A stretch of DNA of 64,000 bases from Desulfosporosinus acididurans (lineage in GTDB: Bacteria; Bacillota; Desulfitobacteriia; Desulfitobacteriales; Desulfitobacteriaceae), in the NCBI RefSeq assembly GCF_001029285.1, contig NZ_LDZY01000009.1, positions 62,001 to 126,000 on the forward strand, given 5' to 3'. The position numbers and the translations under genes are program-made. The notes beneath the pieces are model-generated. The model had not been told where the DNA came from, searched no databases, and saw only the letters and a program-made list of their open reading frames with translations. Below are positions 958-15,990 of this stretch, piece by piece; within the stretch, counting starts at the first letter, position 1, and each line of letters opens with the position of its first letter.

Positions 958-1036
958 AACTTTGGTTTGTAAATTAAACAAGAGAGTAATTCTTACGTTT
1001 AATTTCAAAAATATAAGAATGATGGAGGTTTAACAA

Positions 1037-1477: not shown

Positions 1478-1515
1478 GCTCTTGCAATAAGGAATAAATA
1501 GGGAGGTTAAAATCA

Positions 1516-3408
1516 ATGCCAATGAACTTTGAAACAGTAGAAGTAACAACCGACCTTCTCATCATCGGAGGCGGAATGGGAGCCTGCGGCGCAGCTGTAG
1601 AAGCAGCTTACTGGGGCAAAAAACACGGACTTAAAGTAACCTTAGTTGATAAAGCATCAATGCCGCGTTCCGGTGCTGTCGGAATGGGATTGTCCGCAAT
1701 CAACCTTTATGTTGGACTTGCTGAAGGCAGAAATACAGTCCAAGACTATGTTCGCTATGTTAAAGGCGATATGATGGGAATTGCCCGTGATGACTTGGTC
1801 GCTAACATCGCTCGTCACGTAGACAGCTCCGTGCATATGTTTGAAAAATGGGGCCTTCCTTTATGGAAAGATGAAGAAGGCAACTATGTGCACGAAGGCA
1901 AATGGCAACTGATGATCAGCGGTGAATCTTATAAAGTAATCGTAGCTGAAGCTGCTAAGACTGCTTTAGGCGAAGAAAACATTTATGAGAGAGTCTTCAT
2001 CACCGAGCCGCTGTTAAAAGACGGCAAATGCGTAGGAGCCGTAGGTTTCAGTGTACGTGAGAATAAATTCTATGTCTTCAAAGCAAAAGCTACCTTGTGT
2101 GCAATGGGTGGAACCGTTGGTGTCTTCAAACCGAAATCCACAGGTGAAGGTGCCGGACGTTCATGGTATCCTCCATTCTCCACTGGATCATCTGCTTACT
2201 TCACCATGAAGGCTGGAGCAGAGATGAGCAGCCAAGAAGTACGTTTCGTACCGATTCGTTTCAAAGACGCTTATGGACCAGTAGGAGCATGGTTCTTACT
2301 CTTTAAATCCCGTGCAACCAATGCTATGGGCGAAAACTATATGGAAACCCGTGCCGATGAATTGAAGAAGTTCGGTGTCTACGGTTCCATTAAACCGATT
2401 CCTGCAAACCTGCGTAACCATCTCGGCTTATTAGACGTCCAAGAAGGTAAAGGACCTCTCTTCATGCGCACAGAAGAAGCTATTGCCAATCTGGCTAAAG
2501 CGTATGAAGGAGACGAAAAAGCCTTCAAGAAGAAAATGAAATCCTTAGAAAATGAAGCTTGGGAAGACTTCCTCGATATGACGATTGCCCAAGCCTTATT
2601 ATGGGCTGCAAGCAACGTACAACCGGAAGAAAGATCTTCTGAAATCGCGGCAGCAGAGCCTTACTTCATCAGTTCACACTCCGGTTCATCAGGAGCATGG
2701 ATCTCTGGTCCGGAAGACCTTTCCGCTGGAACCGATTACTTCTGGGGTTATGCTAACATGACCACCGTACCTGGACTCTTTGCTGCAGGTGACGCTTCAG
2801 GAAACTGCCCGCACAAATTCTCTTCAGGAACACACGCTGAAGGACGTATTGCAGGGAAATCTGCTTGCAAATATATCTTAGAGAACAATACGCTTCTCGA
2901 AGTAGAATCTTCAGTAATTGAAGAAATGAAAGCTATCACCTACAAGCCACTGGAAATCTATGAGCAACACAGCGGCTTCAGCACCGATCCACAAGTCAAC
3001 CCGAACTATATTCTTCCGAAACAATTTATGTTCCGTTTACAAAAATTGATGGACGAGTATGTCGGCGGAGCCAACGTATACTTCTGCATGAACAATGCAT
3101 CCTTAGAAAGAGCAGCAGAACTCTTTGAGTTCCTGAAAGAAGACTCGGAAAAACTGGCTGCTAAAGATATTTATGAATTGCTGAGAGTCTGGGAAAACAA
3201 ACACAGAATGTGGCAAGCTGAATCCCACCTTAGAGCAGTAACCTTCCGTGATGAAACTCGTTGGCCTGGATACTATATCAGAACAGACAAACCAGTAATT
3301 GACGAAGAGAACTGGCATTGTTTCGTTAATATGAAATGGGATCCACAAACCAAAGAATGGTCTATCTTCAAACGTCCTGTCATCGATATGTTCGACGTTA
3401 AATTCTAA
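1516..3408 (+). CDS. aprA: adenylylsulfate reductase, alpha (FAD) subunit
   Basis: Catalytic flavoprotein of APS reductase (APS + 2 e- to sulfite + AMP). It is 630 residues, slightly shorter than many proteobacterial AprA. The N-terminal dinucleotide-binding motif IIGGGMGACGAA lies at about residues 16-27 and a second FAD contact region (GDASGNCPHKFSSGTH) at about residues 425-440. RBS GGGAGG is at the right distance from the ATG. The gene is followed by a strong terminator and not by qmoA/qmoB/hdrBC, the usual electron-delivery neighbours in Gram-positive sulfate reducers; the electron donor complex must be encoded elsewhere. Confidence 0.97.
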   Translation: MPMNFETVEVTTDLLIIGGGMGACGAAVEAAYWGKKHGLKVTLVDKASMPRSGAVGMGLSAINLYVGLAEGRNTVQDYVRYVKGDMMGIARDDLVANIARHVDSSVHMFEKWGLPLWKDEEGNYVHEGKWQLMISGESYKVIVAEAAKTALGEENIYERVFITEPLLKDGKCVGAVGFSVRENKFYVFKAKATLCAMGGTVGVFKPKSTGEGAGRSWYPPFSTGSSAYFTMKAGAEMSSQEVRFVPIRFKDAYGPVGAWFLLFKSRATNAMGENYMETRADELKKFGVYGSIKPIPANLRNHLGLLDVQEGKGPLFMRTEEAIANLAKAYEGDEKAFKKKMKSLENEAWEDFLDMTIAQALLWAASNVQPEERSSEIAAAEPYFISSHSGSSGAWISGPEDLSAGTDYFWGYANMTTVPGLFAAGDASGNCPHKFSSGTHAEGRIAGKSACKYILENNTLLEVESSVIEEMKAITYKPLEIYEQHSGFSTDPQVNPNYILPKQFMFRLQKLMDEYVGGANVYFCMNNASLERAAELFEFLKEDSEKLAAKDIYELLRVWENKHRMWQAESHLRAVTFRDETRWPGYYIRTDKPVIDEENWHCFVNMKWDPQTKEWSIFKRPVIDMFDVKF

Positions 3409-3666: not shown

Positions 3667-4482
3667 TAACTTCTCTCTTGCTAGTGAAATATCAAGCGTA
3701 ATTTTAATTAGAGATTGGAGAATCATAAAGAAAGGTATCTGACAATAATAAATGTTTATTATAAAATTTAAATTAAATTGCACAATTTTTGTTATCAATC
3801 GTTTGTAGATTGTTATTAAAGTACAGAAACGAGGGCAATAATAAATAAAACAGAGTGTTATCCTCTAGAAATATAATATAAATTAAAAGCAAAACAAAAT
3901 AACATTGCAAAACTATAAAGTAATAAACTAAATTGTGATAAAGTATCAAGAATAATAGACAGAAAATTCTATTAAAAATATCTTGCCATAATATATCCTG
4001 ATTACGACCATATTGACTCGGAATACTCACAGTGTTAATCTTATCTCATAAATTCAATATCGTCAGCAGCGAGCTTATTATAACAGAGATTCTGAGCAAT
4101 AAATGTATGATACCTGACAAACGTTAAAAAACAGCTAAAAATTTTAGCTAAGGCGGTATGTTCGTAATCAGTTTTAAAAATGTTATTAATCCTTCCCAAC
4201 AGACATGAATAACCTATTCTTTTTCACTAATCCTTTGCTAGCAGGATTAACTTTTAATAGATCACCAAGTGAAAATAATCTCTATTACAAGCTATTACGA
4301 TAATATGAAAATATTTATTGATCTTTTGGTGCAATACCCCCTAAATATCTACGAATTTCAACTTCGAATGTAACACTCAAAGTATAGATAAAGGATGCAA
4401 GAGGTAGGAAGGGGGAAAGTAAAATCTGTTAACTTAATAATCTTAATGTTGCGTAACTTGCTTTTGCATAGGAGGAGTCAAA
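3667..4482. other. AT-rich non-coding stretch upstream of chrA1
   Basis: About 800 bp with no convincing gene. It holds one degenerate copy of the island promoter module (4000-4041) and, just before chrA1, an AGGAGG ribosome site. Short frames on the minus strand here lack ribosome sites and are very AT-rich; they look accidental. Confidence 0.6.
4000..4041 (+). promoter_or_regulatory. degenerate copy P5 of the dyad/extended -10 promoter module
   Basis: GATTACGACCATATTG at 4000-4015 matches the dyad found at 7017, 9149, 10396 and 13437. The matching extended -10, TGTTAATCT, is at 4033-4041. The spacing between the -35 position (TACTCA, 4024) and the -10 is only 6 bp, not the 17-18 of the other copies, so about 11 bp (one helical turn) appears deleted and the promoter may be inactive. 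Confidence 0.45.
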
Positions 4483-5106
4483 GTGGAAGTAGAAAAGGAA
4501 AATGAAAAACGAAAAATCACATTTAAATTTTTATATGAAATATTTATGGTATTTTTTAAAATTTCCCCTATTACTTTTGGCGGCGGATTTGCTATGATTC
4601 CTATCATGGAAGAAGAAATTGTCCATAAAAAACAATGGATAGATCGTGAAAACCTCGTTGATATCTTCGCAGTTTCGCAGTCCTTACCAGGGGCGATCGC
4701 TGTTAATTCCGCTACATTTGTTGGTTATCAGATCGGTGGCATTCCTGGTGCATTAGCTGCATTAGTTGGAATTGTTATCCCTACATTTGTGATTATTATA
4801 ATTTTAGGTGCTTTACTTAGTTCATTTCAGCAAAATAGTTACGTTCAGGCTGCTCTGCAAGGAATTAGACCAATTGTAGTTGCTTTAATCGCCTCTGCTG
4901 CTTTTAAGATGGGACACGTTTCAGTAGTAGATAAAATTAGTGCTGCAATCTGCGCAGTATGTATTATGTCGCTTTTACTAATCAAGAGTCTTAACTTAAT
5001 CCTGGTGATTTTCTTAGGAGCTTTTGTAGGCATTGTGATTGTTAAAGTTAAGGATCAACAAGATAAAAGACTATCTCATAAGAAAGCTAGTGGTGAGACA
5101 TTATGA
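4483..5106 (+). CDS. chrA1: chromate transporter, N-terminal-type half (short-chain CHR)
   Basis: Membrane protein of the chromate ion transporter (CHR) family, 207 residues. The family signature FGGGFAMIP is at about residues 31-39 and the second conserved element SLPGAIAVNSATFVGY at about 67-82. GTG start with ribosome site AGGAGGAG 5 bp upstream. It overlaps the second half (5103) by ATGA, so the two are translationally coupled and probably form the antiparallel heterodimer known for split CHR pairs. Physiological substrate may be chromate or sulfate; placement near sulfate genes fits either, as chromate is a sulfate analogue. Confidence 0.9.
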   Translation: MEVEKENEKRKITFKFLYEIFMVFFKISPITFGGGFAMIPIMEEEIVHKKQWIDRENLVDIFAVSQSLPGAIAVNSATFVGYQIGGIPGALAALVGIVIPTFVIIIILGALLSSFQQNSYVQAALQGIRPIVVALIASAAFKMGHVSVVDKISAAICAVCIMSLLLIKSLNLILVIFLGAFVGIVIVKVKDQQDKRLSHKKASGETL

Positions 5107-5642
5107 GTTTGTATTTGGAAATGATCGTTACTTTTTTCAAACTTGGGTTAGTCAGTTTTGGCGGCGGTTATGCAATGATCCCTCTTATCCAGACAGAAAT
5201 GCAAAGTCATCATTGGTTAGATATCAGTCAGTTTACGAACTTAATTGCTGTATCAGCAATGGCTCCCGGTCCAATTGCCAGCAACACAGCAACAGTAGTG
5301 GGGTATAAATTGGCCGGTCTAACAGGGGCTGCAGTTGCTTGTATTGGAGTAACTTTACCATCATTACTATTAATCCTTGTTGTCGGCAAACTATTTTTTA
5401 CATTTCAGAATCATCCTTATGTAAAAGCCGCTTTCTATGGACTAAGGCCGACTATCGTAGGAGTAATTGCTTATGCTGCTATAAAATTCGCCATAAGTAA
5501 TGGTATTGTCGGCGGTAGCCAGTTTATTGACATTAAGAGCAGCATATTATTAGTCGCAGCTTTTATTCTATTAATTAAGACGAAAATACATCCGGCATAT
5601 CTTATCTTAGCATCAGGAATAATCGGCGTTTTCATATTTTGA
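5103..5642 (+). CDS. chrA2: chromate transporter, C-terminal-type half (short-chain CHR)
   Basis: Second short CHR-family membrane protein, 179 residues. It repeats the signature (FGGGYAMIPL at about residues 18-27, and MAPGPIASNTATVVGYKLAG at about 57-76), as expected for paired halves that arose by duplication of a six-helix unit. Start ATG overlaps the chrA1 stop. A weak terminator follows at 5681. Substrate is inferred only from the family. Confidence 0.9.
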   Translation: MSLYLEMIVTFFKLGLVSFGGGYAMIPLIQTEMQSHHWLDISQFTNLIAVSAMAPGPIASNTATVVGYKLAGLTGAAVACIGVTLPSLLLILVVGKLFFTFQNHPYVKAAFYGLRPTIVGVIAYAAIKFAISNGIVGGSQFIDIKSSILLVAAFILLIKTKIHPAYLILASGIIGVFIF

Positions 5643-5680
5643 GACATTCACAATCAACTTAAAATATCACTATTAGTTTG

Positions 5681-5714
5681 CCTCAGAGAAATAATCTTTG
5701 AGGTTTTCTCTTTT
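5681..5714 (+). terminator. probable terminator after chrA1-chrA2
   Basis: CCTCA...TGAGG hairpin (5681-5703, extended by AG/CT pairs) followed by TTTTCTCTTTT. The rest of 5643-5966 is AT-rich and shows nothing else beyond a likely leader for the next gene. Confidence 0.6.
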
Positions 5715-5966
5715 AGAGATAAATCTACAGCATCGAAGCAAAGTATGAGAACATTTCCTACTAATTGAAGTGGTGTCTTATAATTGCAGATGAAATTATT
5801 TTAGATTTGTCTCTACTTGTTTAAGTGGATATTAATATGCTATAATTTTTTATATCGTAGAAATTATAAATAAGGAATAAATAAGCATAAGCGTATATTT
5901 GAGAAAATCATGTCAGTCTAATATATCAGAATCACAAGGATCCATCATGGAGAAAGAGGTGTTTGT

Positions 5967-6605
5967 ATGAACGATTCTAAGTTTAACGTTTTACTTTATT
6001 CCGATGGCTCACATCAAGCTTTTTCAGCGGCTGTATATACCGCAACGCTTTTAAAAAAAATCCCTAATATGCAGTTAACTATCCTTCAAGTACAAGAAAG
6101 CGATGATGAATCACAAGAAATGAGTTACAGCTGGTTAGAGCTGCGACCCAAATATAAGCGTTATCATTGGGGCTGTCTATCTGAAAATGAGTATAAATGG
6201 ATTGATTCATGGCCAGAGAATCCAAGTCCTGATTGGATGTGTGGTGTACTTAATGAATCTGAGTCTAGCTTAAAAAGCCAAAAACAATACGCAAGCATTT
6301 TAAAAAAGACTAATGAGATTTACCAGAAACGGACTGCAAATGTTAAACAACAAATTCTTTACAAAAAAACAAGTCTCAATGAATCAGCAAGTATTTCTGA
6401 AACGGTAAAAATGATCATTGATTATGCTAGTAGTAATCCTTTTGAGTTAATAATTATGGGTACTCGAGGTCTTTCAACAATTAATGGTTTAATTCATGGC
6501 AGTTTAGCTCATACGGTTCTTGATAAATCTAAGCTTCCTGTTTTGTTAATAAAAAAACTGCCACAGGAGTTTATTGATAATTATCTAGCCTCAGTGGATT
6601 TTTAA
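5967..6605 (+). CDS. universal stress protein family protein, enlarged (copy 1)
   Basis: UspA-like cytoplasmic protein of 212 residues, longer than the usual 140-150. The C-terminal half carries the ATP-binding signature G-x2-G-x9-G-S (GTRGLSTINGLIHGS, about residues 168-182), so it is probably of the ATP-binding class. The N-terminus NVLLYSDGSHQAFSAA is the usual first strand and helix. A Trp/Tyr-rich insertion at about residues 45-100 accounts for the extra length. The tail IKKLPQEFIDNYL is nearly identical in the two other copies (7369, 12227). RBS GAAAGAGG. Role is inferred: stress or nucleotide sensing linked to neighbouring anion transporters. Confidence 0.82.
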   Translation: MNDSKFNVLLYSDGSHQAFSAAVYTATLLKKIPNMQLTILQVQESDDESQEMSYSWLELRPKYKRYHWGCLSENEYKWIDSWPENPSPDWMCGVLNESESSLKSQKQYASILKKTNEIYQKRTANVKQQILYKKTSLNESASISETVKMIIDYASSNPFELIIMGTRGLSTINGLIHGSLAHTVLDKSKLPVLLIKKLPQEFIDNYLASVDF

Positions 6606-6630
6606 TAATTTATAAATGATTGTACTGAAA

Positions 6631-6814
6631 TTAATGAACTCGTTCAGCTAAAGCTGGACATCGGGGCTTTAGATACAATAATGTCCAGTGCACATTATTG
6701 CCGAGCTGCCTTTCCCAATAGGAATACTTAGCGGCGAAGGAGGACTCTACCCCACCTGAAGTTTATGAGGGAACCACCCCCACTTATAGAAGTGGGGTCT
6801 TAAAACTGGATAAA
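6631..6814 (-). repeat. dispersed palindromic repeat, long form (copy R1)
   Basis: Reverse-oriented, about 184 bp. It contains the hairpin GTTCAGCTAAAGCTGGAC, a long arm with AATAATGTCCA and GCCGCCTT-type palindromes, the ACTCTACCCCACCTGAAG box and the terminal hairpin CCCCCACTT/AAGTGGGG. The same parts in the same order recur at 16728 and 51436. No coding capacity. Confidence 0.85.
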
Positions 6815-6885
6815 TATTTGTCATTAATTAAAATATTTTATTCTTGTATAACAACTAAATGTTTAATAGAGATTCATATTTGATT

Positions 6886-6928
6886 TAAAAGGCTTTGGGA
6901 TAAGTAATTTCTTTCCAAAGCCTTTTTT
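6886..6928 (+). terminator. intrinsic terminator
   Basis: AAAGGCTTTGG pairs with CCAAAGCC and is followed by TTTTTT (6923-6928). It follows repeat R1 and would stop transcripts from the USP gene at 5967 that read through the repeat. Confidence 0.8.
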
Positions 6929-7016
6929 ATATGTGTTTTGCCTTCTAATAGTTTTAGATATTTCAACAGATACCCGAGTTCTACGTAGAAGAAAAACCTT
7001 AGATATTAATTATATT

Positions 7017-7069
7017 GATTATGAACATATTGTTTTAATATAGACACCGTGTAAATACAATGCTAATCT
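7017..7069 (+). promoter_or_regulatory. promoter module P1 (dyad plus TAGACA and extended -10)
   Basis: Dyad GATTATGAACATATTG at 7017-7032; -35 TAGACA at 7041-7046; 17-bp spacer; extended -10 TGCTAATCT at 7061-7069. The dyad centre would be near -51, on the same helix face as classic activator sites at -41 and -61. It leads into a decayed small-protein locus (7076-7250) and then the USP gene at 7369. Confidence 0.65.
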
Positions 7070-7094
7070 GTACTTGTTAGTAAAGTCACAAGGA

Positions 7095-7250
7095 AATAGG
7101 AGGTGAAGGTGAAGGCCATTTACTAGTGGATCGGAATATATACTTGCCAAAATAAATACCTTTATCAGTGGTATCTTTAGATGATGACATGAAAGTATGA
7201 TAAAAAAAACAGCCTTGTAAAGGCTGCTAAGAAATTTGACATGTTAATTA
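7095..7250 (+). pseudogene. decayed copy of the tiny-protein locus
   Basis: After an AGGAGGTG ribosome site (about 7098) only a five-codon frame remains. The 3' end (7208-7240, then AATTATACCA at about 7246) aligns with the end of the intact tiny gene at 13634-13762 but carries a 2-nt insertion (CAGCCTTGTAAAGG against CAGCCTCGAAGG) that breaks the frame. The CAGCCTTGTAAAGGCTG palindrome preceded by A's is also a terminator on the minus strand. This is my alignment by eye. Confidence 0.45.
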
Positions 7251-7368
7251 TACCATAAACTCGAAAAAATACTGACTAATTATTTTCGAAATAGCTGAAA
7301 GAATATGCGAAAATTTTAATCGGATTTATTTTATATGGTTCAAGTTATTTAGGGAAGGGGCTATTTAT

Positions 7369-8037
7369 ATGGCAAAATCGAATTTTAATGTTTTGCTCTA
7401 TTCAGATGGATCGAGACAATCGATCTCTGCTGCTGTATATGCCGCATCACTCATAAATAATATTCCTAATATGAAATTGACAATTCTTCAAATACATGAA
7501 AGTCATGAACGTTTTATGGGGAGTGAATTTAGTTGGATTGAATTAAGACGAAAGTATAAGAGGATTTACTGGGAATCCGAATCGGAACTTAGTTGGTCCC
7601 AAACTTATCTTAAAATTCCTGACGATGATTGGTTTAAACGAATGCTTAATTCAGAGGAAGATTGTGGAGATCAATATGCTCGTATAGTATCGAAAACAAA
7701 CCGAATTTTTGTAGAAAGTTCGCACAGCATTAAACATCAGATATTATATTCCAATATTAATAAGTCAGATATCTCCGATACAGCAGATTTGATTTTAAAC
7801 TATTCAAGTAGAAACTCATTTAATCTAATTATTATAGGGTTGCAAGGTTTCTCAATGTTTAATGGGTTGATTTTCGGGGGCTTGGCTCATAAAGTACAAA
7901 ATAAGTCATCAATTCCGGTACTCTTAATTAAAAAGCTGCCTCAAGAATTTATTAGTAATTTCTTATCGGATACTAGAGAAGAAAACTGCCCGATTGCACA
8001 TATGATCAGTGGCCGTACAAGTAATATATTTTTTTAA
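7369..8037 (+). CDS. universal stress protein family protein, enlarged (copy 2)
   Basis: UspA-like, 222 residues, paralogue of the proteins at 5967 and 12227. It shares the N-terminus (FNVLLYSDGSRQSISAAVYA), the Trp-rich middle insertion and the tail IKKLPQEFISNFL, followed by an extra 20-residue extension. The nucleotide signature is altered: GLQGFSMFNGLIFGGLA, where the final Gly-Ser is Gly-Gly, so ATP binding may be weakened or lost. RBS GGGAAGGGG before the ATG. It is followed by a terminator and then, 91 bp on, by the first of the unknown ~208-residue paralogues. Confidence 0.8.
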   Translation: MAKSNFNVLLYSDGSRQSISAAVYAASLINNIPNMKLTILQIHESHERFMGSEFSWIELRRKYKRIYWESESELSWSQTYLKIPDDDWFKRMLNSEEDCGDQYARIVSKTNRIFVESSHSIKHQILYSNINKSDISDTADLILNYSSRNSFNLIIIGLQGFSMFNGLIFGGLAHKVQNKSSIPVLLIKKLPQEFISNFLSDTREENCPIAHMISGRTSNIFF

Positions 8038-8062
8038 TGTATTCAGCAGAACAAGATAACTT

Positions 8063-8094
8063 GCCCTAAATGAGGATTTCTCTTTGGGGCTTTT
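8063..8094 (+). terminator. intrinsic terminator
   Basis: GCCCTAAA pairs (one G-T) with TTTGGGGC and is followed by TTTTA. It lies just past the USP gene at 7369. Confidence 0.7.
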
Positions 8095-8128
8095 ATATGC
8101 ATGACTGAATCTGAAAGAAGGGATAAAT

Positions 8129-8755
8129 TTGTCATCGTTAAATGAAACTAATACAACAATTTCAAATCCACCTGAAGAAATTGAACGGGAGACCGGAGAT
8201 AAATCATATCCGATTTGGCTGTTAGTAAACCCTAAACATCCAGCTGTACGCCATAATATTTGGGCACCAGTGCTTGCGGAGATACAAGAAAAGGTTTATA
8301 GAGACTTGCGTACGAGAATTGATACAACGAAACTATACACGAGAAAAGTTGTTAGTGACAGCAGAATAATTCCCAATACTTTAAATTGGTGGGGTACGGA
8401 ATTAGCCAAAGAAATTGAGCTTTTCAGAGGGATCGTTGTGGATTATCAACCAAAGATATTAATAACATTTGGCTCATTTCCTTTTGAATTTGTGCGAAGA
8501 GTCTATGAAATATATCCGGAGAAAGGTCCAAAATTTTGGGGTACCTCAAATTTAGGGGATGAATTTGGCAAAGCTATTGAAAACTTTGATATCACGAAAA
8601 CTAATCGAGTTCCTTTGCTGCGCAGAGTTGTAAAAAGTGGGAGATTTATTGAAGATCATAACTATTATGGAGAAAACTATTTTCAGTATGTAGGAAAAAA
8701 AGTAGCTGAAAAGATTATTGATAATAAAGATAGTCTTGATATATGGATCAAATAA
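8129..8755 (+). CDS. unknown conserved protein, family of three paralogues (copy a)
   Basis: 208 residues, TTG start with AGAAGGG ribosome site. I do not recognise the family with certainty. No signal peptide or membrane helix is seen. Conserved among the three copies (8129, 9438, 15991): TGDKSYPIWLLVNPKHPAVR, PVLAEIQ, PNTLNWWG, a strand-like ITFGSFPFEFVRRV, EKGPKFWG, FDITKTNR followed by PLLRRV, and a C-terminus ending in LDIWIK. The layout (an NP-x-HP start, an LNWW motif, an ITFG strand, and a late I-W ending) faintly recalls the uracil-DNA glycosylase fold, but the catalytic GQDP motif is absent and this is only a hypothesis. Soluble cytoplasmic protein, function unknown. Confidence 0.8.
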   Translation: MSSLNETNTTISNPPEEIERETGDKSYPIWLLVNPKHPAVRHNIWAPVLAEIQEKVYRDLRTRIDTTKLYTRKVVSDSRIIPNTLNWWGTELAKEIELFRGIVVDYQPKILITFGSFPFEFVRRVYEIYPEKGPKFWGTSNLGDEFGKAIENFDITKTNRVPLLRRVVKSGRFIEDHNYYGENYFQYVGKKVAEKIIDNKDSLDIWIK

Positions 8756-8773
8756 GGAATCAAGTGCTCAACT

Positions 8774-8806
8774 GCCCTGAAGGCTCAAACTTCAGGGCTT
8801 ATTTTT
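8774..8806 (+). terminator. intrinsic terminator
   Basis: GCCCTGAAG pairs with CTTCAGGGC across a 7-nt loop, followed by TTATTTTT. It ends the transcript of the unknown gene at 8129. Confidence 0.88.
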
Positions 8807-9148
8807 AACTGCCAATTTTTCAATGGCGAGGTTGACTTCTAGGAAAAAAATATTTTAGGTAATTAAGAAATATTATAATAATTGGTCAATAAAATTCTGC
8901 AAACTTTTAAAATTAATACTCTATTTGGTAAACTGCGAAGTGTAAAAACAATCACGGGGTTTTATGATTTTGTATTGACTTTGATTTTCAAGCTTTTTCT
9001 CTTGTTTTTACCTCTTTAGCGCCCGAACACGTCAAAGGTGTTATATTAATAACTTAAAAATATAGCCAAAGTTAATGCAGCGAAAAAGAAAGATTAACTA
9101 AAATGGAATAAACAGGAACCAGGACGCGCTATAACCATAGGATATTCT
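8807..9148. other. non-coding AT-rich stretch
   Basis: About 340 bp between the terminator at 8774 and promoter module P2. I see no gene, repeat copy or strong hairpin in it. Confidence 0.5.
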
Positions 9149-9201
9149 GATTACGATAATATTGCCTAGTTATAGACAATATCTTAACACAATGATAATC
9201 T
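9149..9201 (+). promoter_or_regulatory. promoter module P2
   Basis: Dyad variant GATTACGATAATATTG at 9149-9164; TAGACA at 9173-9178; 17-bp spacer; extended -10 TGATAATCT at 9193-9201. Spacing between dyad and -35 is identical to P1, P3 and P4. It leads into a strongly decayed tiny-protein locus ending at 9299-9320 (GGCTGCTAAGAAATTTGA, shared with 7222 and related to 13741), then the unknown gene at 9438. Confidence 0.6.
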
Positions 9202-9437
9202 TTAATTGTGAGGATAAGTACATACTTTAGGTGAGGAGGGAGACGATACTATCATAATCTTAGATATAGAAGCAATAGAGTTAAGAAGGCATATCTAAGG
9301 GCTGCTAAGAAATTTGATAAATTTTCAATAAAATATTAGTTATAGATTAAGACAGTTGTTTGATAAGCTAATTCCTGACCCAAGCTAAAGAACTGATAAT
9401 ATTTAGATGTTTAAATCTTGAGAGGAGGGATTTTTAT

Positions 9438-10067
9438 ATGTCTAACTTAACGCTTAACAGATATATTCCTGCAGTAGAAAAAATCAAACAGGAGACAGGA
9501 GATAGAAGTTACCCTATATGGCTGCTTGTTAATCCCAAACATCCTGCTGTTCGTCACAATATATGGACTCCCGTTCTTGCTGAGATACAGGATAAGGTAT
9601 TCCGAGTTTTGCACTCACGGATAGATACCTCAAATATTTATATTCGGAACGCAGTTAGAATAAGTGAGCTCGTTCCAAATACACTAAACTGGTGGGGCGT
9701 TGAAGTAGCAGAAGAAATTGAGGTTTTTAAGGAAATTGCCGTTGAAAATAAGCCTAAAATTATTATTTCCTTTGGCGCATTTCCTTTTGAATTCTTGAGA
9801 AGAGTTTATCAGATTAAACCTGAAAAGGGACCAAAGTTTTGGAGTACTGCTAATCTTGGTCAAGAATTTGGAAAGTCAATCAATAATTTTGATATTACGA
9901 AGACAAACAGAATTCCGTTGCTCCGTCGAGTCATTGAAACCGCAAAATTTACGGTTGATCAAAGTTATTCGGGCCCTCATGACGGCGAGACATACTTTCA
10001 TTATGTTGGAACAAAAATAGCGGATAGAATTATTGAGCATAAGGATGATCTCGATATTTGGATTTAG
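9438..10067 (+). CDS. unknown conserved protein, family of three paralogues (copy b)
   Basis: 209 residues, paralogue of the proteins at 8129 and 15991. ATG start with ribosome site GAGAGGAGGG. All blocks of the family are present: YPIWLLVNPKHPAVRHNIW, PVLAEIQDKV, PNTLNWWG, IISFGAFPFEFLRRVY, FDITKTNRIPLLRRV and the C-terminal LDIWI. A four-residue insertion (about residue 178, GPHDG) distinguishes it. No homologue with known function is recognised. It stands alone between P2 and a weak terminator, so it is probably its own transcript. Confidence 0.8.
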   Translation: MSNLTLNRYIPAVEKIKQETGDRSYPIWLLVNPKHPAVRHNIWTPVLAEIQDKVFRVLHSRIDTSNIYIRNAVRISELVPNTLNWWGVEVAEEIEVFKEIAVENKPKIIISFGAFPFEFLRRVYQIKPEKGPKFWSTANLGQEFGKSINNFDITKTNRIPLLRRVIETAKFTVDQSYSGPHDGETYFHYVGTKIADRIIEHKDDLDIWI

Positions 10068-10102
10068 CAATTTATTAGTATTCATTTAGCTTAAAATAAA
10101 CC

Positions 10103-10140
10103 CAGCACTATGGCCTTGGCCCAATCTTTAGTGCAATTTT
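10103..10140 (+). terminator. weak terminator
   Basis: GCACTA...TAGTGC hairpin with an interrupted stem, followed by AATTTT. It follows the unknown gene at 9438. Confidence 0.45.
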
Positions 10141-10167
10141 GAACTAAGTGAATAATACCTGTTAAGA

Positions 10168-10206
10168 TTAAGTGAACTCGTTCAGCTAAAGCTGAACACC
10201 GGGGCT
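10168..10206 (-). repeat. dispersed palindromic repeat, end fragment (copy R2)
   Basis: Only the hairpin end remains: AAGTGAACTCG, TTCAGCTAAAGCTGAA and CCGGGGCT, reverse orientation. Confidence 0.75.
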
Positions 10207-10315
10207 GATAAACATTAAATTATGACTATTTTACTGAATTGAGTAAAGCTTCAATAAAATTATTCTCTTGTGAAAATAAATCGAAATTGACAAAAGTTCC
10301 AGGCGAAATCGATAG

Positions 10316-10357
10316 AGGTCTGTAGTGAGTATGTTCCTACGGGCCTTTGCTTTTTTT
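10316..10357 (+). terminator. intrinsic terminator-like hairpin
   Basis: AGGTCTGTAG pairs with CTACGGGCCT (one G-T) and is followed by TTGCTTTTTTT. It lies just ahead of promoter P3 and would insulate the TSUP operon. Confidence 0.75.
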
Positions 10358-10395
10358 AGGTGACTTTATAGAGGGCTTGAGTCATAAATAAAATC

Positions 10396-10449
10396 GATTA
10401 TGAACATATTGTTATCCTATAGACACGAGGCAAAGACAAATGTTACTCT
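10396..10449 (+). promoter_or_regulatory. promoter module P3 of the TSUP operon
   Basis: Dyad GATTATGAACATATTG at 10396-10411, identical to P1; TAGACA at 10420-10425; extended -10 TGTTACTCT at 10441-10449 (18-bp spacer). A short hairpin TGTGAG/CTCACA follows at about 10453-10468, near the start of the RNA. The downstream gene is the TSUP transporter at 10559. Confidence 0.65.
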
Positions 10450-10558
10450 ATTTGTGAGAAGACTCACATGTTAAAAGTAAGGGGGGTGAGATTGATAAAA
10501 AACTATAAGTTGAAGACTTAATGCCTAGAAAATTTAACGTATATAGGAGGCCCAGAAT

Positions 10559-11485
10559 ATGATCGGACAATTTTTCGCCCACACCAGTTCAATATTTGCA
10601 TCAACTAGTCTTGCTGTGGCGAATGCAGCTAGTACCCCAGGTATGCCCTGGTGGGTATGGCCGCTTGCCTTGATGGTAACAACCTTCTTTATTGGTATTG
10701 TTTCGGCCCTGGCAGGAATTGGGGGAAGTACACTTTTTGTACCAATCATTAGCAGCTTCTTTCCTTTTAACTTTGATTTCATTCGTGGCACGGGTTTATT
10801 TGTTGCTCTTGCATGTTCATTGTCTGCCGGACCTAAGCTTCTCAAAGCAAATATGGCAAGTTTGCGATTAGTTATTCCCCTAGCATTGCTTGCTTCCTCT
10901 TCAAGTATCGCTGGAGCATATTTAGGACTTGCTCTACCACAGAATATATTGAAAATATTATTAGGTGTTTTAATAACAGGTATAGCCTTAGTATTTGTGG
11001 TTTCGAAAAATAGTGAAATTCCTAAGATTGGCCGTCCGGATTCTTTAGCTCGTTATCTGAATATCGGGGGCGCATATTATGAGTCTTCCAGCGGCCAAGA
11101 TATCAACTGGACGGTTTGGAGACTGCCTCAAGGTTTGTTGCTCTTCTGCGTTATCGGGGTTATCGCTGGAATGTTTGGAATTGGCGCAGGTTGGGCTAAC
11201 GTTCCTGTATTGAATCTCCTGCTAGGGGCTCCTCTCAAAATAGCAGTTGGTACGAGTATGTCACTACTGGCAATCACTGATACCTCAGCGGCCTGGATTT
11301 ATTTAAATCAGGGTGCAGTACTGGCAATAATTACTATTCCTTCAGTTCTTGGCATTATGCTTGGATCACGTGTAGGTGTTCGGCTTCTCAATATTACAAA
11401 ACCTAAATCAATCCGCTATATTGTAATCCTTATGTTATTATTTGCAGGGTTAAAATCTTTATTAGATGGATTAGGATGGGGGTAA
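10559..11485 (+). CDS. TSUP (TauE/SafE) family sulfur-anion transporter
   Basis: Membrane protein of 308 residues in the TauE/SafE (sulfite exporter / sulfate-type) family. About eight hydrophobic helices are visible, with the duplicated family motif SALAGIGGSTLFVPII at about residues 48-63 and AGMFGIGAGWANVPVLN at about 203-219. RBS AGGAGG 8 bp before the ATG. It is five bases from the small membrane protein at 11491, so they form an operon driven by P3. Family members move sulfite, sulfoacetate, sulfate or other organosulfur anions; the sat-aprBA neighbourhood makes sulfate or sulfite plausible, which is inference. Confidence 0.88.
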   Translation: MIGQFFAHTSSIFASTSLAVANAASTPGMPWWVWPLALMVTTFFIGIVSALAGIGGSTLFVPIISSFFPFNFDFIRGTGLFVALACSLSAGPKLLKANMASLRLVIPLALLASSSSIAGAYLGLALPQNILKILLGVLITGIALVFVVSKNSEIPKIGRPDSLARYLNIGGAYYESSSGQDINWTVWRLPQGLLLFCVIGVIAGMFGIGAGWANVPVLNLLLGAPLKIAVGTSMSLLAITDTSAAWIYLNQGAVLAIITIPSVLGIMLGSRVGVRLLNITKPKSIRYIVILMLLFAGLKSLLDGLGWG

Positions 11486-11490
11486 AAATT

Positions 11491-11964
11491 ATGAATAGTC
11501 AAGCTTCTGTTTCCAATGGCCATGCTCCAAGTGTAGTCAATACTTCGGATGCTGCTCTAAGTTCAATGGTTAGTCCTGAACAGAATCGATATGCAAATAT
11601 TTTATTAGTATGTTCCTGGGCCGGCATAGGTATTATGGCTGTTACGTTTATTCTGTATATGGCTGGTTTATTTAATCCAATGGTTGCGCCTTCGCAAATG
11701 CCTCAGTATTGGGGGCTTTCAGTTCATGAATATGCAAAACTTACTAATGCTCCTTCGGGTTGGAGTTGGTTAACAATGGTCAGCCATGCTGATTATATGA
11801 ATTTAGTTGGATTAGCATTTTTAGGATTAGTTTCTGTTATTGGGTATATTACCTTGTTTTTCAATTATTCTATGAAAAAAGATATACCCTATGCAATTAT
11901 GGTTGGGCTGGAAATTATTATTATACTCTCGGCAGCTTCAGGCGTTTTTCATGTAGCCGGATAA
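11491..11964 (+). CDS. small membrane protein, DUF1634-like partner of the TSUP transporter
   Basis: 157 residues from ATG 11491, which has GGGGG 8 bp upstream; an upstream in-frame ATG at 11476 overlaps the TSUP gene and lacks a ribosome site. Three hydrophobic segments (about residues 38-58, 98-120, 132-150). The part YWGLSVHEYAKLTNAPSGWSW between helices 1 and 2 resembles DUF1634 proteins that I remember as neighbours of TauE/SafE genes in anaerobes. It probably forms a complex with, or regulates, the transporter. Assignment rests on pattern and context. Confidence 0.7.
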   Translation: MNSQASVSNGHAPSVVNTSDAALSSMVSPEQNRYANILLVCSWAGIGIMAVTFILYMAGLFNPMVAPSQMPQYWGLSVHEYAKLTNAPSGWSWLTMVSHADYMNLVGLAFLGLVSVIGYITLFFNYSMKKDIPYAIMVGLEIIIILSAASGVFHVAG

Positions 11965-12226
11965 GAAAATTTCATTTTCGTGAGATCGCTTTTCTGAAAC
12001 CCAATAAGATAACTGTTAGTTAATGAGATTCTGACCTGAGTAGATCTAAAGCAATTTCAGAGATGATAATTGATTATGCTCATATTATCTGGGCTTAACT
12101 AAATGTGAAATCAAAAGGGGATTTGAAAAAGATCTGAAAAAATCTAAAAAAACTTTAAAACACTAGAGACTGAGAACTTGTAATTATGATAAAATAGTTC
12201 TAAATTTTATTAGGAGAGATTGAATT

Positions 12227-12784
12227 ATGAATGATTCTCAGTTTAAAGTGCTTCTTTACTCCGATGGCTCGCATCAGGCTTTTTCAGCAGCGGTCTATAC
12301 TGCTACACTACTGCAAAACATGCCAGATATGCAATTAACGGTATTAAGAGTTATTGAGGAAACCGAATCTCCTTCATTTAAATCGTATGATTGGAGAGAT
12401 ACTTGGCCTGCTACTCCAACTTCTGAATGGATGAAGCATGTCCTTTCCGAATCGGATAACGAGACTGAGCAAGAATATTATAAGATTCTTCGTAAAACAA
12501 ATCAAATCTTCTTCAACCAGGGATATAATGTTGCCCATAAAGAAATATACACTAAGAGTACAAGCGGTGCTCCTAATGATACTTCTCATATTGAAGATAT
12601 AATCCTTGAATATGCAAATACCAATTCTTTTGATCTGATTATTATTGGAACTCGCGGTTTATCAAGTTTTAAGGGGTTAATCTTCGGCAGTTTAGCCCAT
12701 AATTTACTTAATAAGTCAACGATACCAGTTATGCTGATTAAAAAACTTCCGCAAGAATTTATTGATAGTTACTTGGAAAATTGA
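12227..12784 (+). CDS. universal stress protein family protein (copy 3)
   Basis: UspA-like, 185 residues, closest to the protein at 5967 (same opening FKVLLYSDGSHQAFSAAVYT). It lacks part of the Tyr-rich insertion of the other two. The ATP signature is intact: GTRGLSSFKGLIFGS at about residues 143-157. The tail IKKLPQEFIDSYL is shared by all three copies. RBS TAGGAGAG. It follows the TSUP operon by 262 bp on the same strand and could be part of its transcript or have its own promoter. Confidence 0.82.
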   Translation: MNDSQFKVLLYSDGSHQAFSAAVYTATLLQNMPDMQLTVLRVIEETESPSFKSYDWRDTWPATPTSEWMKHVLSESDNETEQEYYKILRKTNQIFFNQGYNVAHKEIYTKSTSGAPNDTSHIEDIILEYANTNSFDLIIIGTRGLSSFKGLIFGSLAHNLLNKSTIPVMLIKKLPQEFIDSYLEN

Positions 12785-12803
12785 TAGGAATTATTGTAAG
12801 ACA

Positions 12804-12895
12804 TTTATCCAATCGTAAGACTCCCACTTATATAAGTGAGAGTGGTTCCCACACCTAGCTTCGGTGGGGGAGAGCCCCCCCCGCTGAAACCCTGC
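12804..12895 (+). repeat. dispersed palindromic repeat, right end missing (copy R3a)
   Basis: Plus orientation. It has the left end TTTATCCAATCGTAAGACTC, the CCCACTT...AAGTGAG hairpin and the CTTCGGTGGGGGAGAG box; the GTTCAGCTTTAGCTGAAC end is lost. Confidence 0.75.
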
Positions 12896-12968
12896 TAAGG
12901 ATTTGCGTTATAGATGTTATAGAATTGTCCCCCAAAATGGTAGACAAAAATAGGTTAAAACGATGTCG

Positions 12969-12999
12969 AGGTGACCGAATAAGCGGTCACCTCTTTTTA
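12969..12999 (+). terminator. intrinsic terminator
   Basis: AGGTGACCG pairs with CGGTCACCT, loop AATAAG, then CTTTTTAT. It lies between repeat copies R3a and R3b, so the transcript it ends probably comes from the USP gene at 12227. Confidence 0.85.
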
Positions 13000-13006
13000 T
13001 GCTGCG

Positions 13007-13126
13007 TTTATCCAGTTTTTAAGGCCCCCGCTTCTAAGTGGGGTGGGCCCCTCGTTAACTTCAGGTGGGGTAGAGTCCCCTCTGAAGCCCCGATGCTCAG
13101 CTTTAGCTGAACGAGTTTCACTTAAC
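13007..13126 (+). repeat. dispersed palindromic repeat, short form, complete (copy R3b)
   Basis: Plus orientation, about 120 bp, from TTTATCCAGTTTTTAAG to GAACGAGTTTCACTTAA. Both end hairpins and the CTTCAGGTGGGGTAGAGTCC box are present. Confidence 0.85.
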
Positions 13127-13326
13127 GGTACTGTACGGGATTCATGCCGGCAAGCTTTTTAAAAATTTTTTTAGGATCATTCTTTCAGCATCGATAATAA
13201 TTATTGATTAGCTACTGCTTTCAACTGGATACCTAAATCATCGATTGGCGTTTTAAAGAATGGAAATGTCGAATTGTAGAAAAGAAAAGATATTTTTGGT
13301 TATTTTTAAAGATTATATTGGGAGTA

Positions 13327-13422
13327 ATGAATCTGAGCAAAGAGAAAAATTCACAAAGTAATCAAAAGGTAAAGAGCAGTATAGAGGAGCTAAATCACGA
13401 ATTACATTATTTATCATTTTAG
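13327..13422 (+). CDS. possible 31-residue protein, Spo0E-like in appearance
   Basis: Short frame of 31 codons with GGGAG upstream of the ATG. The peptide is polar, with a helix-forming segment SIEELNHELHYLSF that recalls the helical hairpin of tiny Spo0E-like aspartyl phosphatases but lacks a clear SQELD motif. It ends just before promoter P4. Evidence is weak; it may be chance. Confidence 0.25.
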   Translation: MNLSKEKNSQSNQKVKSSIEELNHELHYLSF

Positions 13423-13436
13423 CCATTACGTTAATC

Positions 13437-13489
13437 GATGGTGAGCATATTGATTTCCCATAGACAGAACAAAAACATAATGTTAACCT
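13437..13489 (+). promoter_or_regulatory. promoter module P4 of the tiny-protein pair
   Basis: Dyad variant GATGGTGAGCATATTG at 13437-13452; TAGACA at 13461-13466; 17-bp spacer; extended -10 TGTTAACCT at 13481-13489. The first tiny gene begins about 43 bp after the -10, with ribosome site TTGGAGGTG. Confidence 0.65.
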
Positions 13490-13531: not shown

Positions 13532-13633
13532 ATGTTAACAGGTATATTAGCGATCATGGTTATGGTAGCATCCTTCGGAGTTATCTTAGCGGATCAATTG
13601 GGGCAAAGAAGCGGAGGAAGAGAGCATGTGTAA
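13532..13633 (+). CDS. 33-residue single-helix membrane peptide
   Basis: ATG with a strong GGAGGTGA ribosome site. The peptide has one hydrophobic segment, LTGILAIMVMVASFGVILA (residues 2-20), then a short charged tail with Arg and Gly ending REHV. It follows promoter P4 and its stop codon directly abuts the ATG of the next tiny gene. Not recognised as a known family. Small single-pass peptides often modulate transporters or kinases, but nothing here shows the target. Confidence 0.6.
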   Translation: MLTGILAIMVMVASFGVILADQLGQRSGGREHV

Positions 13634-13762
13634 ATGGACAGTTTTAGAAACAGAAACAAAAACAAAAACAGAAACAAAAACAAAAACAAAAACTTCAACG
13701 ATTGGGTTAGAGTTAAAAAAATAAAAAAAGCAGCCTCGAAGGCCGCTAAAAAATGTGACTAA
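13634..13762 (+). CDS. 42-residue Asn/Lys-repeat basic peptide
   Basis: ATG directly after the TAA of the membrane peptide at 13532, so translation is probably coupled. Residues 5-20 are a near-perfect alternation of Asn with Lys or Arg, encoded by an AACAAA tandem repeat, followed by a basic helix rich in Lys and Ala (AASKAAKK) and a C-terminal Cys-Asp. Decayed relatives of its 3' end lie at 7208-7240 and 9299-9320. It looks nucleic-acid- or membrane-binding by charge alone. Whether it is translated is uncertain. Confidence 0.4.
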   Translation: MDSFRNRNKNKNRNKNKNKNFNDWVRVKKIKKAASKAAKKCD

Positions 13763-14093
13763 ATAAATTATACCAGAATTCCTTATGGTTATCTACCCTG
13801 ACCAAGTAACTGCTGCAAAATCTCATGCTTAAAAGAAAAGAAGACTTAGTTGCAGCCTAAGTTGTAGGTTGCAACTAAGTCTCAATCAAAGTCATCTGGG
13901 TTAAGGAATTCTAGGCCGCCGTTTTAGGGCGATTTGAACGTCTATAGGTATAGGTTAACACCAATAGGCTTGGCTTTTTGTTGCTAAATTTTGAGACTAA
14001 AGTTATGCCTTAAACGTTCGGAATAACAACCCTAATGTATCAACGACTCAGATAGCTTAGAGGGTTGTCATTCAGAGGAAAGGTGGGATTAAT
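13763..14093. other. non-coding leader region of the SulP gene
   Basis: No gene seen. Two inverted repeats: AGACTTAGTTGCA... at 13842-13882 (16 of 17 paired, 7-nt loop; T-rich only on the minus strand) and ACAACCCT/AGGGTTGT at 14026-14068 with a 27-nt loop immediately ahead of the SulP ribosome site. The second could be a regulatory hairpin or operator. Confidence 0.5.
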
Positions 14094-15923
14094 TTGAACC
14101 TAACAGGATTTCGCTATATTCCTGTGATTTCTACAATTAAGAACTACAAAAAGGAGTATTTCGTCAAAGACTTAATTGCTGCTTTGACTGTTGCTGTTGT
14201 AGCGATTCCTCAGTCAATGGCTTATGCTCTAATCGCGGGAGTAAATCCACTTTACGGTCTATACACGGCTATCGTGTCTTCCATTTTTGGTTCAGCTTTT
14301 GGAAGTTCGAAACATTTAGTTACAGGTCCCACAAATGCCATATGCTTACTCGTTGCAGGAAGTATGCGAAACTATATGGGACTTGATAATGCTTATCAAA
14401 TGCTCTTTCTTATGACGTTCCTAGTGGGGACTTTACAAATGTTATACGGAATAATTAAACTAGGAAAAGTCATTAATTTTGTTTCACATAGCGTTATTGT
14501 GGGTTTTACCGCGGGTGCGGGTGTTTTAATCGCCCTTGGACAATTGAATACCATACTGAGCATTTCGATTAAAAATTCAGCCCAATTACCAACTATGGAG
14601 AAACTTTACTATGTATTAACTCACATTAATCAGACAAATCTTTATGCATTAGGACTAGGATTATTGACGATCGTAATCATTGTGACATGTAAAAAAATCA
14701 ATAAAAACTTGCCTGGTGCGCTTATAGGGATTATTATCCCGATCTTAATAATTGTCATGTTTGGATTGGATCAAAAGGGTGTTAAACTTACAGGAGTTAT
14801 ACCTTCGTCATTGCCTCCTTTTAGAATGGTTCAATTCAACTTTGATGCAGCAAGTAAAGTATTTAGTGGGGCTATTGCAATTTCTGTGATTGGTTTAGTC
14901 GAAGCGATATCAATTTCTAAATCTATTTCAAGTACCTCTCGACAAAAAATTGATGCCAATCAAGAATTTATAGGACAGGGACTTTCGAATATAATATCTT
15001 CGTTTTTCCAGTGTTTTCCTGCATCGGGTTCCTTCACTCGTTCTGCCATTAACTACCATAATGGAGCTGTGAGCAGATTGTCAGGAATTCTGTCCGGTGT
15101 GGTGATAGCCATTGTTCTCTTGTTCTTTGCACCCTATGCCCGCTATATCCCGAATCCTTGCCTAGCAGGAGTTATCCTGGTAACAGCATATAGTTTAATT
15201 GATCAGGAAGAAATTAAGAGTATTATCAAATTAGGGAAATTAAATTCGGATTCTTTAGCTATGGCGGTAACTTGTTTAGCAACAATCCTACTGCCAGATT
15301 TAGATTATGCGATTTATACGGGCATAGTGTTATCTATAATACTTTATCTTAAGGACACGAATAAATCACCAATTAAATTGTTCATTCCTTCACAGGGAAG
15401 GGATTTGAAAATTAACAGACAGGAATTAATGGTCGTAGATGAGAAAACTGATTTGCTTATAATCCAATTAGAAGGGCATTTGTATTTTGGCTCTGCCTAC
15501 GATTTAGAACAGAAACTTGATAGTTTGGTTGATAAAGCTAATCTTTATATTTTGGAAATGAAAAATGTTATCTCCCTTGACGTAACAGTACTAAATGCCT
15601 TGAAGGTTTTCATTAAAGCTGTCAATAGGTTTGGCGGAAAAGTCATGATCTGCGGAGTAAGACCGGAGATTAATTTACTACTTTTAAAGGCGAATCTAGA
15701 TACTGAATTAGGAGTGGATAACAAGTTTACCTTGTCAGAAGACGAACTATTAAAATTAATAGCTCTTGATATCGAGAAAACTAGGGTTCCATTTCCTTGT
15801 GAAAATACGAACACGGAAACTAATAATTTCGCCTATCATCTCTTACAGTCTGTTTCGAATTTTAATGGGGGGAACAACTCCGATAAAAAGCCAGCTTATT
15901 TTGAAAATACTAGCACTAATTAA
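14094..15923 (+). CDS. SulP family anion transporter with STAS domain
   Basis: Membrane transporter of 609 residues, usual for SulP. TTG start with AGGAAAGGTGGG upstream. The sulfate-transporter signature lies early (PQSMAYALIAGVNPLYGLY, about residues 39-57) and about eleven to twelve helices run to residue 420. A cytoplasmic STAS domain follows (about 445-565: LEGHLYFGSAYDLEQKL, then MKNVISLDVTVLNAL). The tail of about 40 residues is Asn-rich. SulP proteins import sulfate, bicarbonate or other anions; beside sat-aprBA, sulfate uptake is the obvious guess. It is 67 bp ahead of the third unknown paralogue and likely co-transcribed with it. Confidence 0.93.
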   Translation: MNLTGFRYIPVISTIKNYKKEYFVKDLIAALTVAVVAIPQSMAYALIAGVNPLYGLYTAIVSSIFGSAFGSSKHLVTGPTNAICLLVAGSMRNYMGLDNAYQMLFLMTFLVGTLQMLYGIIKLGKVINFVSHSVIVGFTAGAGVLIALGQLNTILSISIKNSAQLPTMEKLYYVLTHINQTNLYALGLGLLTIVIIVTCKKINKNLPGALIGIIIPILIIVMFGLDQKGVKLTGVIPSSLPPFRMVQFNFDAASKVFSGAIAISVIGLVEAISISKSISSTSRQKIDANQEFIGQGLSNIISSFFQCFPASGSFTRSAINYHNGAVSRLSGILSGVVIAIVLLFFAPYARYIPNPCLAGVILVTAYSLIDQEEIKSIIKLGKLNSDSLAMAVTCLATILLPDLDYAIYTGIVLSIILYLKDTNKSPIKLFIPSQGRDLKINRQELMVVDEKTDLLIIQLEGHLYFGSAYDLEQKLDSLVDKANLYILEMKNVISLDVTVLNALKVFIKAVNRFGGKVMICGVRPEINLLLLKANLDTELGVDNKFTLSEDELLKLIALDIEKTRVPFPCENTNTETNNFAYHLLQSVSNFNGGNNSDKKPAYFENTSTN

Positions 15924-15990
15924 AGGTGATTGTAAACCCAAAACGACGAGTGATCGACGATCGATAAATTGATTGAGAGGCGGGATCAAA

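Follow-up and report, generated by a model that had tools for sequence, protein, structure and literature searches.

Control of sulfate uptake in sulfate reducers is poorly known, and in the literature we found no regulator of this process for Gram-positive sulfate reducers and nothing on the regulation of sulfate transport in Desulfosporosinus. The closest described systems are LysR-type promoters, whose box is defined as T-N11-A (PMC3382589), and the HcpR regulon of Desulfovibrio, where TTGTGAnnnnnnTCACAA overlaps the sat and apsAB promoters (PMC545781). Here we describe a promoter module that is repeated in a 64,000-nucleotide stretch of Desulfosporosinus acididurans (contig NZ_LDZY01000009.1, positions 62,001 to 126,000; the window). 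The repeated module is real, genus-wide and linked to sulfate, and its sequence and its co-occurrence with genes make it probable that it is controlled by a LysR-type protein whose gene adjoins the dsr genes (G000:C8:217809 and its paralogs).

The preliminary description of this DNA reported four intact copies, at 7017, 9149, 10396 and 13437, and a defective fifth at 4000, and all of them are present in the sequence. The spacer between the promoter boxes is 17 bp, with 18 bp at 10396, as had been described, and the loss at 4000, estimated at about 11 bp, is exactly 11 bp and includes the -35 box; the distance from the dyad centre to TAGACA, given as 15 bp, was counted as 16 bp and is identical in all four intact copies. 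The copies are as follows, the scores being those of a weight matrix built from 80 non-redundant sites.

7003-7091, plus strand: promoter module 1, with the upstream block from 7003, matrix score 61; GATTATGAACATATTG at 7017-7032, -35 box TAGACA at 7041-7046, 17-bp spacer, TGC and the -10 box TAATCT at 7064-7069; it lies upstream of the Usp-like gene at 7369-8037.
7074-7091, plus strand: start-site palindrome of module 1, TTGTTAGTAAAGTCACAA.
9135-9223, plus strand: promoter module 2, matrix score 58.4; GATTACGATAATATTG at 9149-9164, -35 box TAGACA at 9173-9178, -10 box TAATCT at 9196-9201, imperfect palindrome at 9206-9223; it lies upstream of the gene of a genus-specific family (c0) at 9438-10067.
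10382-10469, plus strand: promoter module 3, matrix score 59.0; GATTATGAACATATTG at 10396-10411, -35 box TAGACA at 10420-10425, 18-bp spacer, -10 box TACTCT at 10444-10449; it lies upstream of the TauE/TSUP gene at 10559-11485.
10452-10469, plus strand: palindrome of module 3, TTGTGAGAAGACTCACAT.
13423-13489, plus strand: promoter module 4, matrix score 62.6; GATGGTGAGCATATTG at 13437-13452, -35 box TAGACA at 13461-13466, -10 box TAACCT at 13484-13489; it lies upstream of a microprotein gene and then the SulP gene at 14094-15923.
3986-4041, plus strand: shortened module 5, matrix score 11.7; it keeps GATTACGACCATATTG at 4000-4015 and TGTTAATCT, and lies 440 bp upstream of a chromate-transporter pair at 4483-5642.

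At up to three mismatches GATTATGAACATATTG occurs nine times in the window, where 1.27 matches are expected; five of the nine are the sites of the preliminary description, and those at 4154 and 12072 do not form modules. With TAGACA required at the fixed distance, the same threshold leaves six matches in the whole 4.64-Mb genome and one in the reversed control. These six are the five window sites and one site on contig C24, where a SulP gene and a YeiH-like gene follow it, while a longer pattern adds a site on C1 that also precedes SulP, bringing the genome total to about seven. The four intact window sites score 58-63 with the weight matrix, the rest of the window 2 or less apart from the 4000 site, and random sequence at most -4. 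The 11 bp lost from the 4000 copy amount to about one helical turn. The shortened form is also kept in two related species (L040 and L075), so the 4000 copy may still work.

Beyond this genome, a search with the site and TAGACA found the site in 30 of the 46 genomes of the family, and a 65-bp pattern that includes both promoter boxes (up to three mismatches) gave about 125 sites in 29 of the 83 genomes of the class; the reversed control gave no match. In an exact scan that covered 84,980 genomes of named species, matches were confined to Desulfosporosinus and its sister genus Acididesulfobacillus, namely to Desulfosporosinus species, a Bacillota bin (G032, of the window's genus), and Acididesulfobacillus acetoxydans and Peptococcaceae bacterium CEB3 (G001 and G002); the viral contigs scanned held none. 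The module is shown by these scans to be limited to sulfate-reducing Desulfosporosinus and Acididesulfobacillus. That it defines a regulon agrees with what had been proposed at first, and a search for numerous random genome hits away from genes did not contradict it.

For a description of its anatomy 148 sites were thinned to the 80 non-redundant ones (less than 72% identical to one another), and positions are given relative to an assumed start 7 nucleotides after the -10 box. Column information spans about -78 to +3 and is near background outside, with blocks in the order CCATAr, TGATTATGAnCATATTG, CTATAGACA, 17 bp and TGnTAATCT, and the consensus is TTnrCCATAr-N3-wAwAtTGATTATGAnCATATtGaTttgCTATAGACAc-N9-CACAATGnTAATCTTTAnTTGtgA. 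The spacer measures 17 bp in 66 sites, 18 bp in 13 and 16 bp in one. The extended -10 TG and the outer bases of the -10 box never vary, in part because sites were selected for them, while AT at -72/-71, 12 bp upstream of the 16-bp site, is present in 84 of 84 sites and lay outside the search pattern. The conserved unit is much larger than the 16-bp site first described, which is only its middle.

Within the upstream block, T-71 and A-59 are each found in 80 of 80 sites, T-49 in 79 and A-37 in 71. T-71/A-59 and T-49/A-37 are T-N11-A pairs with box centres at -65 and -43 and a midpoint at -54, which means that the two features of LysR-type promoters, a T-N11-A box near -65 (as counted from the inferred start site) and a second box beside the -35, are both found here. 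All dyad centres and direct-repeat lags from -78 to -31 were scanned against column-shuffled matrices, where the dyad centre at -54 gave z 3.17 and that at -65 z 2.9, with -43 lower at z 2.0. As -54 is the midpoint of -65 and -43 and the pairs have the T-N11-A form, GATTATGAACATATTG can be read as the inner halves of two boxes; it looks like the right half of a first LysR-type box joined to the left half of a second. If a LysR tetramer occupies both a recognition site and an activation site, such a nested symmetry would be expected; the data are consistent with this rather than strong evidence for it. The TATG-N2-CATA dyad centred near -51, which had been taken for the binding site, does not emerge from the same scan: its centre is outside the ten best, and neither this simple dyad nor a direct-repeat array is supported.

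An arrangement that keeps the promoter and the regulon but assigns them to another activator family, such as the AraC type or response regulators of LytTR or OmpR type, would place the protein on tandem direct repeats: two CATA-N9/10-AT units at an interval of 22 bp, of which the second overlaps the -35 box. It is possible but doubtful. A lag of 22 is among the better lags (z 2.06), the distance to the -35 box is strict and a LytTR gene lies beside a module-controlled CstA transporter gene (L116); however, no lag reaches the 95% null of 2.96, and in the neighbourhood of the sites neither AraC nor LytTR genes were found to be conserved, although these families were not searched genome-wide.

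The view that the module carries an activator-type site upstream of a weak -35 and an extended -10 is borne out. A scan for consensus sigma-70 promoters lists none of the four window promoters, as is expected of weak, activator-dependent promoters, and the sigma-54 elements (GG-N10-GC at -24/-12) are absent from the consensus. It is unlikely that the -35/-10 pair (CTATAGACA and TGnTAATCT, with C at -10 position 5) belongs to a dedicated alternative sigma factor, the upstream block being an activator site or UP-type element. TAGACA and TAnnCT are indeed nearly unchanged in the 80 sites and unlike TTGACA and TATAAT, but weak boxes are frequent at activator-dependent promoters, the 17-18-bp spacing with the extended -10 TG in 80 of 80 sites is the housekeeping pattern, and no sigma-factor gene is found among the conserved neighbours.

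The genome of the window holds 15 LysR matches, of which, in comparison with G001, G004 and G020, the group around C8:217809 fits best. This dsr-linked LysR is present in 29 of 30 genomes of the genus and in both Acididesulfobacillus-type genomes; it is found in all 29 module-bearing genomes and is missing from G020 (98% complete, 3.0 Mb, about 210 contigs), the sole near-complete Desulfosporosinus genome without the module, which is also without c0, aprA and dsrA. Desulfosporosinus sp. Tol-M, the inferred counterpart of G020, has been published as having no dsrAB (PMC4299902). With gene names read from the sequence, the order is dsrMKJOP-cobB-LysR in G001 and dsrAB-cobB-LysR (a broken copy) in the window's genome, and by coordinates the LysR gene lies within about 5 kb of dsrA in most other genomes. 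Over 30 genomes its copy number follows the number of modules with rho 0.84, and with rho 0.82 when the set is thinned to 21, compared with rho 0.38 for other LysR genes. Three copies have their own module 190-225 bp upstream; two of these are sisters in the tree and the third was not placed.

Two other LysR genes were considered. L189 fitted the first screen (in G000 and G001, not in G004 and G020), but it is missing from most module-bearing genomes and was rejected; L190 is unlikely, being present in 29 genus genomes including the module-less G020 and missing from G034, which has 13 modules. The gene aprA was not found in some module-bearing genomes, and in several of them the cluster ends at a contig end near the expected apr. 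One of these genomes, G011, is taken to be SbF1, which is reported to encode AprBA (PMC6372793), so the apparent absences are likely assembly gaps.

Several points weigh against the dsr-linked LysR as the regulator. The dyads are weak, since the 95% null for the maximum is 3.03 and only -54 stands just above it. The whole pathway is lost in G020, so that several genes vanish together, and the copy-number correlation spans related genomes that share ancestry, so that its p-value is too small. Most copies of the gene are not preceded by a module, and the genome-wide survey of regulators covered LysR genes and no other families. The related genera g3 and g6-g8 have dsrA and the dsr-linked LysR and no module; presence of the gene alone therefore does not predict the module, which may have arisen later, when the regulator already existed. 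Adjacency of regulator and target, which is usual and not obligatory for LysR proteins, is seen only in the three copies directly below a module: no LysR gene lies near the window sites, and in four genomes neither the window cluster nor sat-aprBA has a regulator gene next to it.

With these points on both sides, we consider the chances evenly balanced that the module is an activator-dependent promoter of the housekeeping sigma factor on which a dsr-linked LysR tetramer, sensing a sulfur metabolite, occupies the -65 and -43 boxes. One dimer would bind the recognition box at -65 (T-71, A-59) and the second the activation box at -43 (T-49, A-37), which overlaps the -35 box; a co-inducer would shift the second dimer and allow RNA polymerase to use the weak TAGACA/TGnTAATCT. 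The likeliest regulator would be the LysR encoded beside dsrAB or dsrMKJOP. In a subset of modules a CRP/HcpR- or Rex-like factor would repress from a palindrome over the start site, and in about half of them a leader hairpin would add a step after initiation.

In roughly one copy out of four the palindrome, TTGTGA-N6-TCACA, lies at the start site. Among 48 non-redundant modules with the left half TGTGA (up to one mismatch), 18 have TCACA at a gap of exactly 6, and every other gap is represented by 0-2 modules; the full TTGTGA-N6-TCACAA form of HcpR/CRP sites is present in 18 of the 80 (up to one mismatch per half). One variant alters both halves jointly (TTGCGA...TCGCAA). The palindrome begins a few nucleotides after the -10 box, so a bound protein would block the start. 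A CRP/FNR-type regulator, which had been suggested for the upstream site, is not indicated there: the CRP/HcpR-like palindrome lies downstream of the -10 and in a subset only.

Three copies of the leader element were located in the window.

7194-7265, plus strand: leader element, hairpin ACAGCCUUGUAAAGGCUGC followed by UAAGAAAUUUGA; covariance model 55.4 bits, E 6e-7; fold -9.1 kcal/mol.
9273-9344, plus strand: leader element, weak copy with a poor hairpin; covariance model 46.4 bits.
13715-13785, plus strand: leader element, hairpin GCAGCCUCGAAGGCCGC followed by UAAAAAAUGUGAC; 58.0 bits; fold -8.4 kcal/mol, z -2.5; the hairpin is terminator-like on the minus strand.

The hairpin GCnGCCU-loop-AGGCnGC followed by UAAGAAAUUURAUCG lies below 72 of the 148 modules (25 of the 80 non-redundant ones). 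Five of its six pairs have changed on both sides, and the covariation score exceeds all 500 shuffles. In 1.06 Mb the covariance model has 72 matches, 39 of which are sequences that trained it, and all lie 69-274 nucleotides below a module on the same strand. At the gathering score Rfam gives no match in the window region (one sub-threshold hit is on the minus strand) or in seven loci. Wobble pairs favour the plus over the minus strand by 13 to 3 in well-aligned rows (p 0.02) and by 22 to 15 in all rows, which is not clear. The minus strand carries TGnTATAAT in about a third and a U-run after the hairpin in about half, and some copies may represent a short minus-strand transcript with its terminator instead of a plus-strand leader. 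The strict placement below modules, the covariation and the lack of an Rfam family could suggest that the leader, as a riboswitch or protein-bound hairpin, is the main device and the promoter is constitutive. This is quite improbable, as only about half of the modules have the element, a constitutive promoter would have no need of an upstream block of 45 invariant bp, the model was trained on 39 of its 72 matches and the subset with the A-run may be the minus-strand terminator.

The first genes below modules encode SulP permeases, TauE/SafE proteins, SLC13-type sulfate symporters, Usp-like proteins, chromate transporters and, most commonly, c0; scattered sites precede genes that, by names read from the sequence, would encode CBS-domain, CstA, Mrp antiporter, CO dehydrogenase, NADH-dehydrogenase-like and eqolisin-like protease proteins. 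That the copies merely go back to a recent duplication of the island, as remnants of paralogy or as a mobile element, and share no regulator is hardly credible: the repeated Usp-like and c0 genes of the window cluster indicate that some copies arose together with genes, but the targets are unrelated and unlinked (SulP, TauE, SLC13, CBS, CstA, Mrp, CO dehydrogenase, LysR), conservation ends sharply at -78 and about +3, and upstream, spacer and leader sequences differ between copies, by which the idea is already largely refuted. In metatranscriptomes of the metagenome-assembled genome SbF1 (taken as G011), dsr genes and UspA rise together when sulfate and substrate are given (PMC6372793).

8129-8755, 9438-10067 and 15973-16611: members of the c0 family in the window.
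13532-13633, plus strand: membrane microprotein gene MLTGILAIMVMVASFGVILADQLGQRSGGREHV, 33 residues with a single helix, from translation; first gene after module 4.

The genus-specific c0 family, the main target of the module, mostly has 2-8 copies per genome and is found in 28 of 30 genomes of the genus and in both Acididesulfobacillus-type genomes; the other genomes of the family have none. It matches no Pfam or NCBIfam family. Its predicted structure has a predicted local distance difference test score of 83, and all top 40 PDB matches of the model are uracil-DNA glycosylases (template-modelling scores 0.34-0.46), which weakly suggests a uracil-DNA-glycosylase-like fold.

The preliminary description had placed the module before a TSUP transporter and tiny genes; the transporter stands below module 3 and a conserved tiny gene, that of the microprotein, below module 4 and ahead of SulP, whereas the other open reading frames of the leaders are not conserved. 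Homologues of the microprotein occur at the same place in other species, and SulP-type leaders encode a protein of 27-50 residues that starts 36-47 nucleotides after the -10 box. Its first 22 or so residues read MvxGxxAIIVMVAVFGIVxVDY, with one likely membrane helix, and the median ratio of nonsynonymous to synonymous substitution (dN/dS) is about 0.35 over pairs, many of which have saturated dS. From its position it could be a small subunit of SulP.

The window cluster lies directly below sat-aprBA, and the sat-apr genes themselves have no module. In this region (G000:C9:44000-65405, comprising L202 and window positions 1-3408) qmo and aprBA occur twice, nearly identical and about 10 kb apart. 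In over a third of genomes (L043, L045, L049, L050, L053, L061, L063, L080 and L095) the module-controlled c0 gene has genes for an NtrC-type response regulator and a histidine kinase next to it; such regulators need sigma-54 promoters, and as the module is not one they were rejected as its regulators. A gene under or beside some modules (L115:4931-5275, L055, L057, L078, L112 and L113; broken in L106) encodes a small zinc-finger protein that seemed a possible regulator; its N-terminus is rich in cysteine, and it has the C-terminal domain of the RNA polymerase alpha subunit (PF03118). Since it occurs in about half of the genus or fewer and is apparently a pseudogene in the window's genome, it is at most a member of the regulon. 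A palindrome-rich repeat, CTCGTTCAGCTAAAGCTGAACACCGGGGCT, at window positions 6634-6680, 10171-10215 and 13085-13130, with one copy inverted, is perhaps the end of an insertion element, and a TnpB-like fragment is present in the related cluster L075.

What emerges is a regulon whose predicted promoters number well over a hundred across some 30 genomes, with one testable candidate regulator and with a natural loss, as one Desulfosporosinus genome without sulfate-reduction genes is also without the module. Which protein controls sulfate uptake in Desulfosporosinus becomes a directly testable question, and a new leader RNA and a SulP-linked microprotein are offered for study. We tentatively suggest a dedicated sulfate-uptake regulon that evolved in Desulfosporosinus and its sister genus from one composite cassette: a LysR-type activator site, a weak promoter, an optional start-site operator and a leader hairpin of a new RNA family acting on the transcript. 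The SulP microprotein would then be a possible new subunit, and the target c0 a degenerate uracil-DNA-glycosylase-like family found only here.

In comparison with known systems, the palindrome equals the HcpR/CRP consensus and, like the HcpR sites, lies near the -10 and start of sulfate-metabolism genes, in a position that suggests repression. Here, however, it accompanies only a subset of modules, just after the -10 and before transporter and accessory genes, with an activator site upstream. The Rex operator, TTGTGAA-N4-TTCACAA, has the outer bases TTGTGA/TCACAA in common with it, but the inner positions here are mostly G and G/A and not A and T, which disfavours Rex. The nearest curated relatives of the candidate include the YeiE, CysB and selenium-metabolism-associated LysR regulators; it scores below every named NCBIfam cut-off, theirs included, and belongs to none of these groups. 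To our knowledge, the site sequence of the module is not a recognised LysR site. The module nevertheless resembles LysR-type promoters (sliding-dimer model; the lys box of PltR, PMC3382589) in its T-N11-A boxes near -65 and against the -35, its strict spacing and its weak core promoter, and differs from them in that a single type of site is shared throughout a genus by many operons that are not linked, and in that a subset of copies also carries the start-site palindrome and the leader hairpin.

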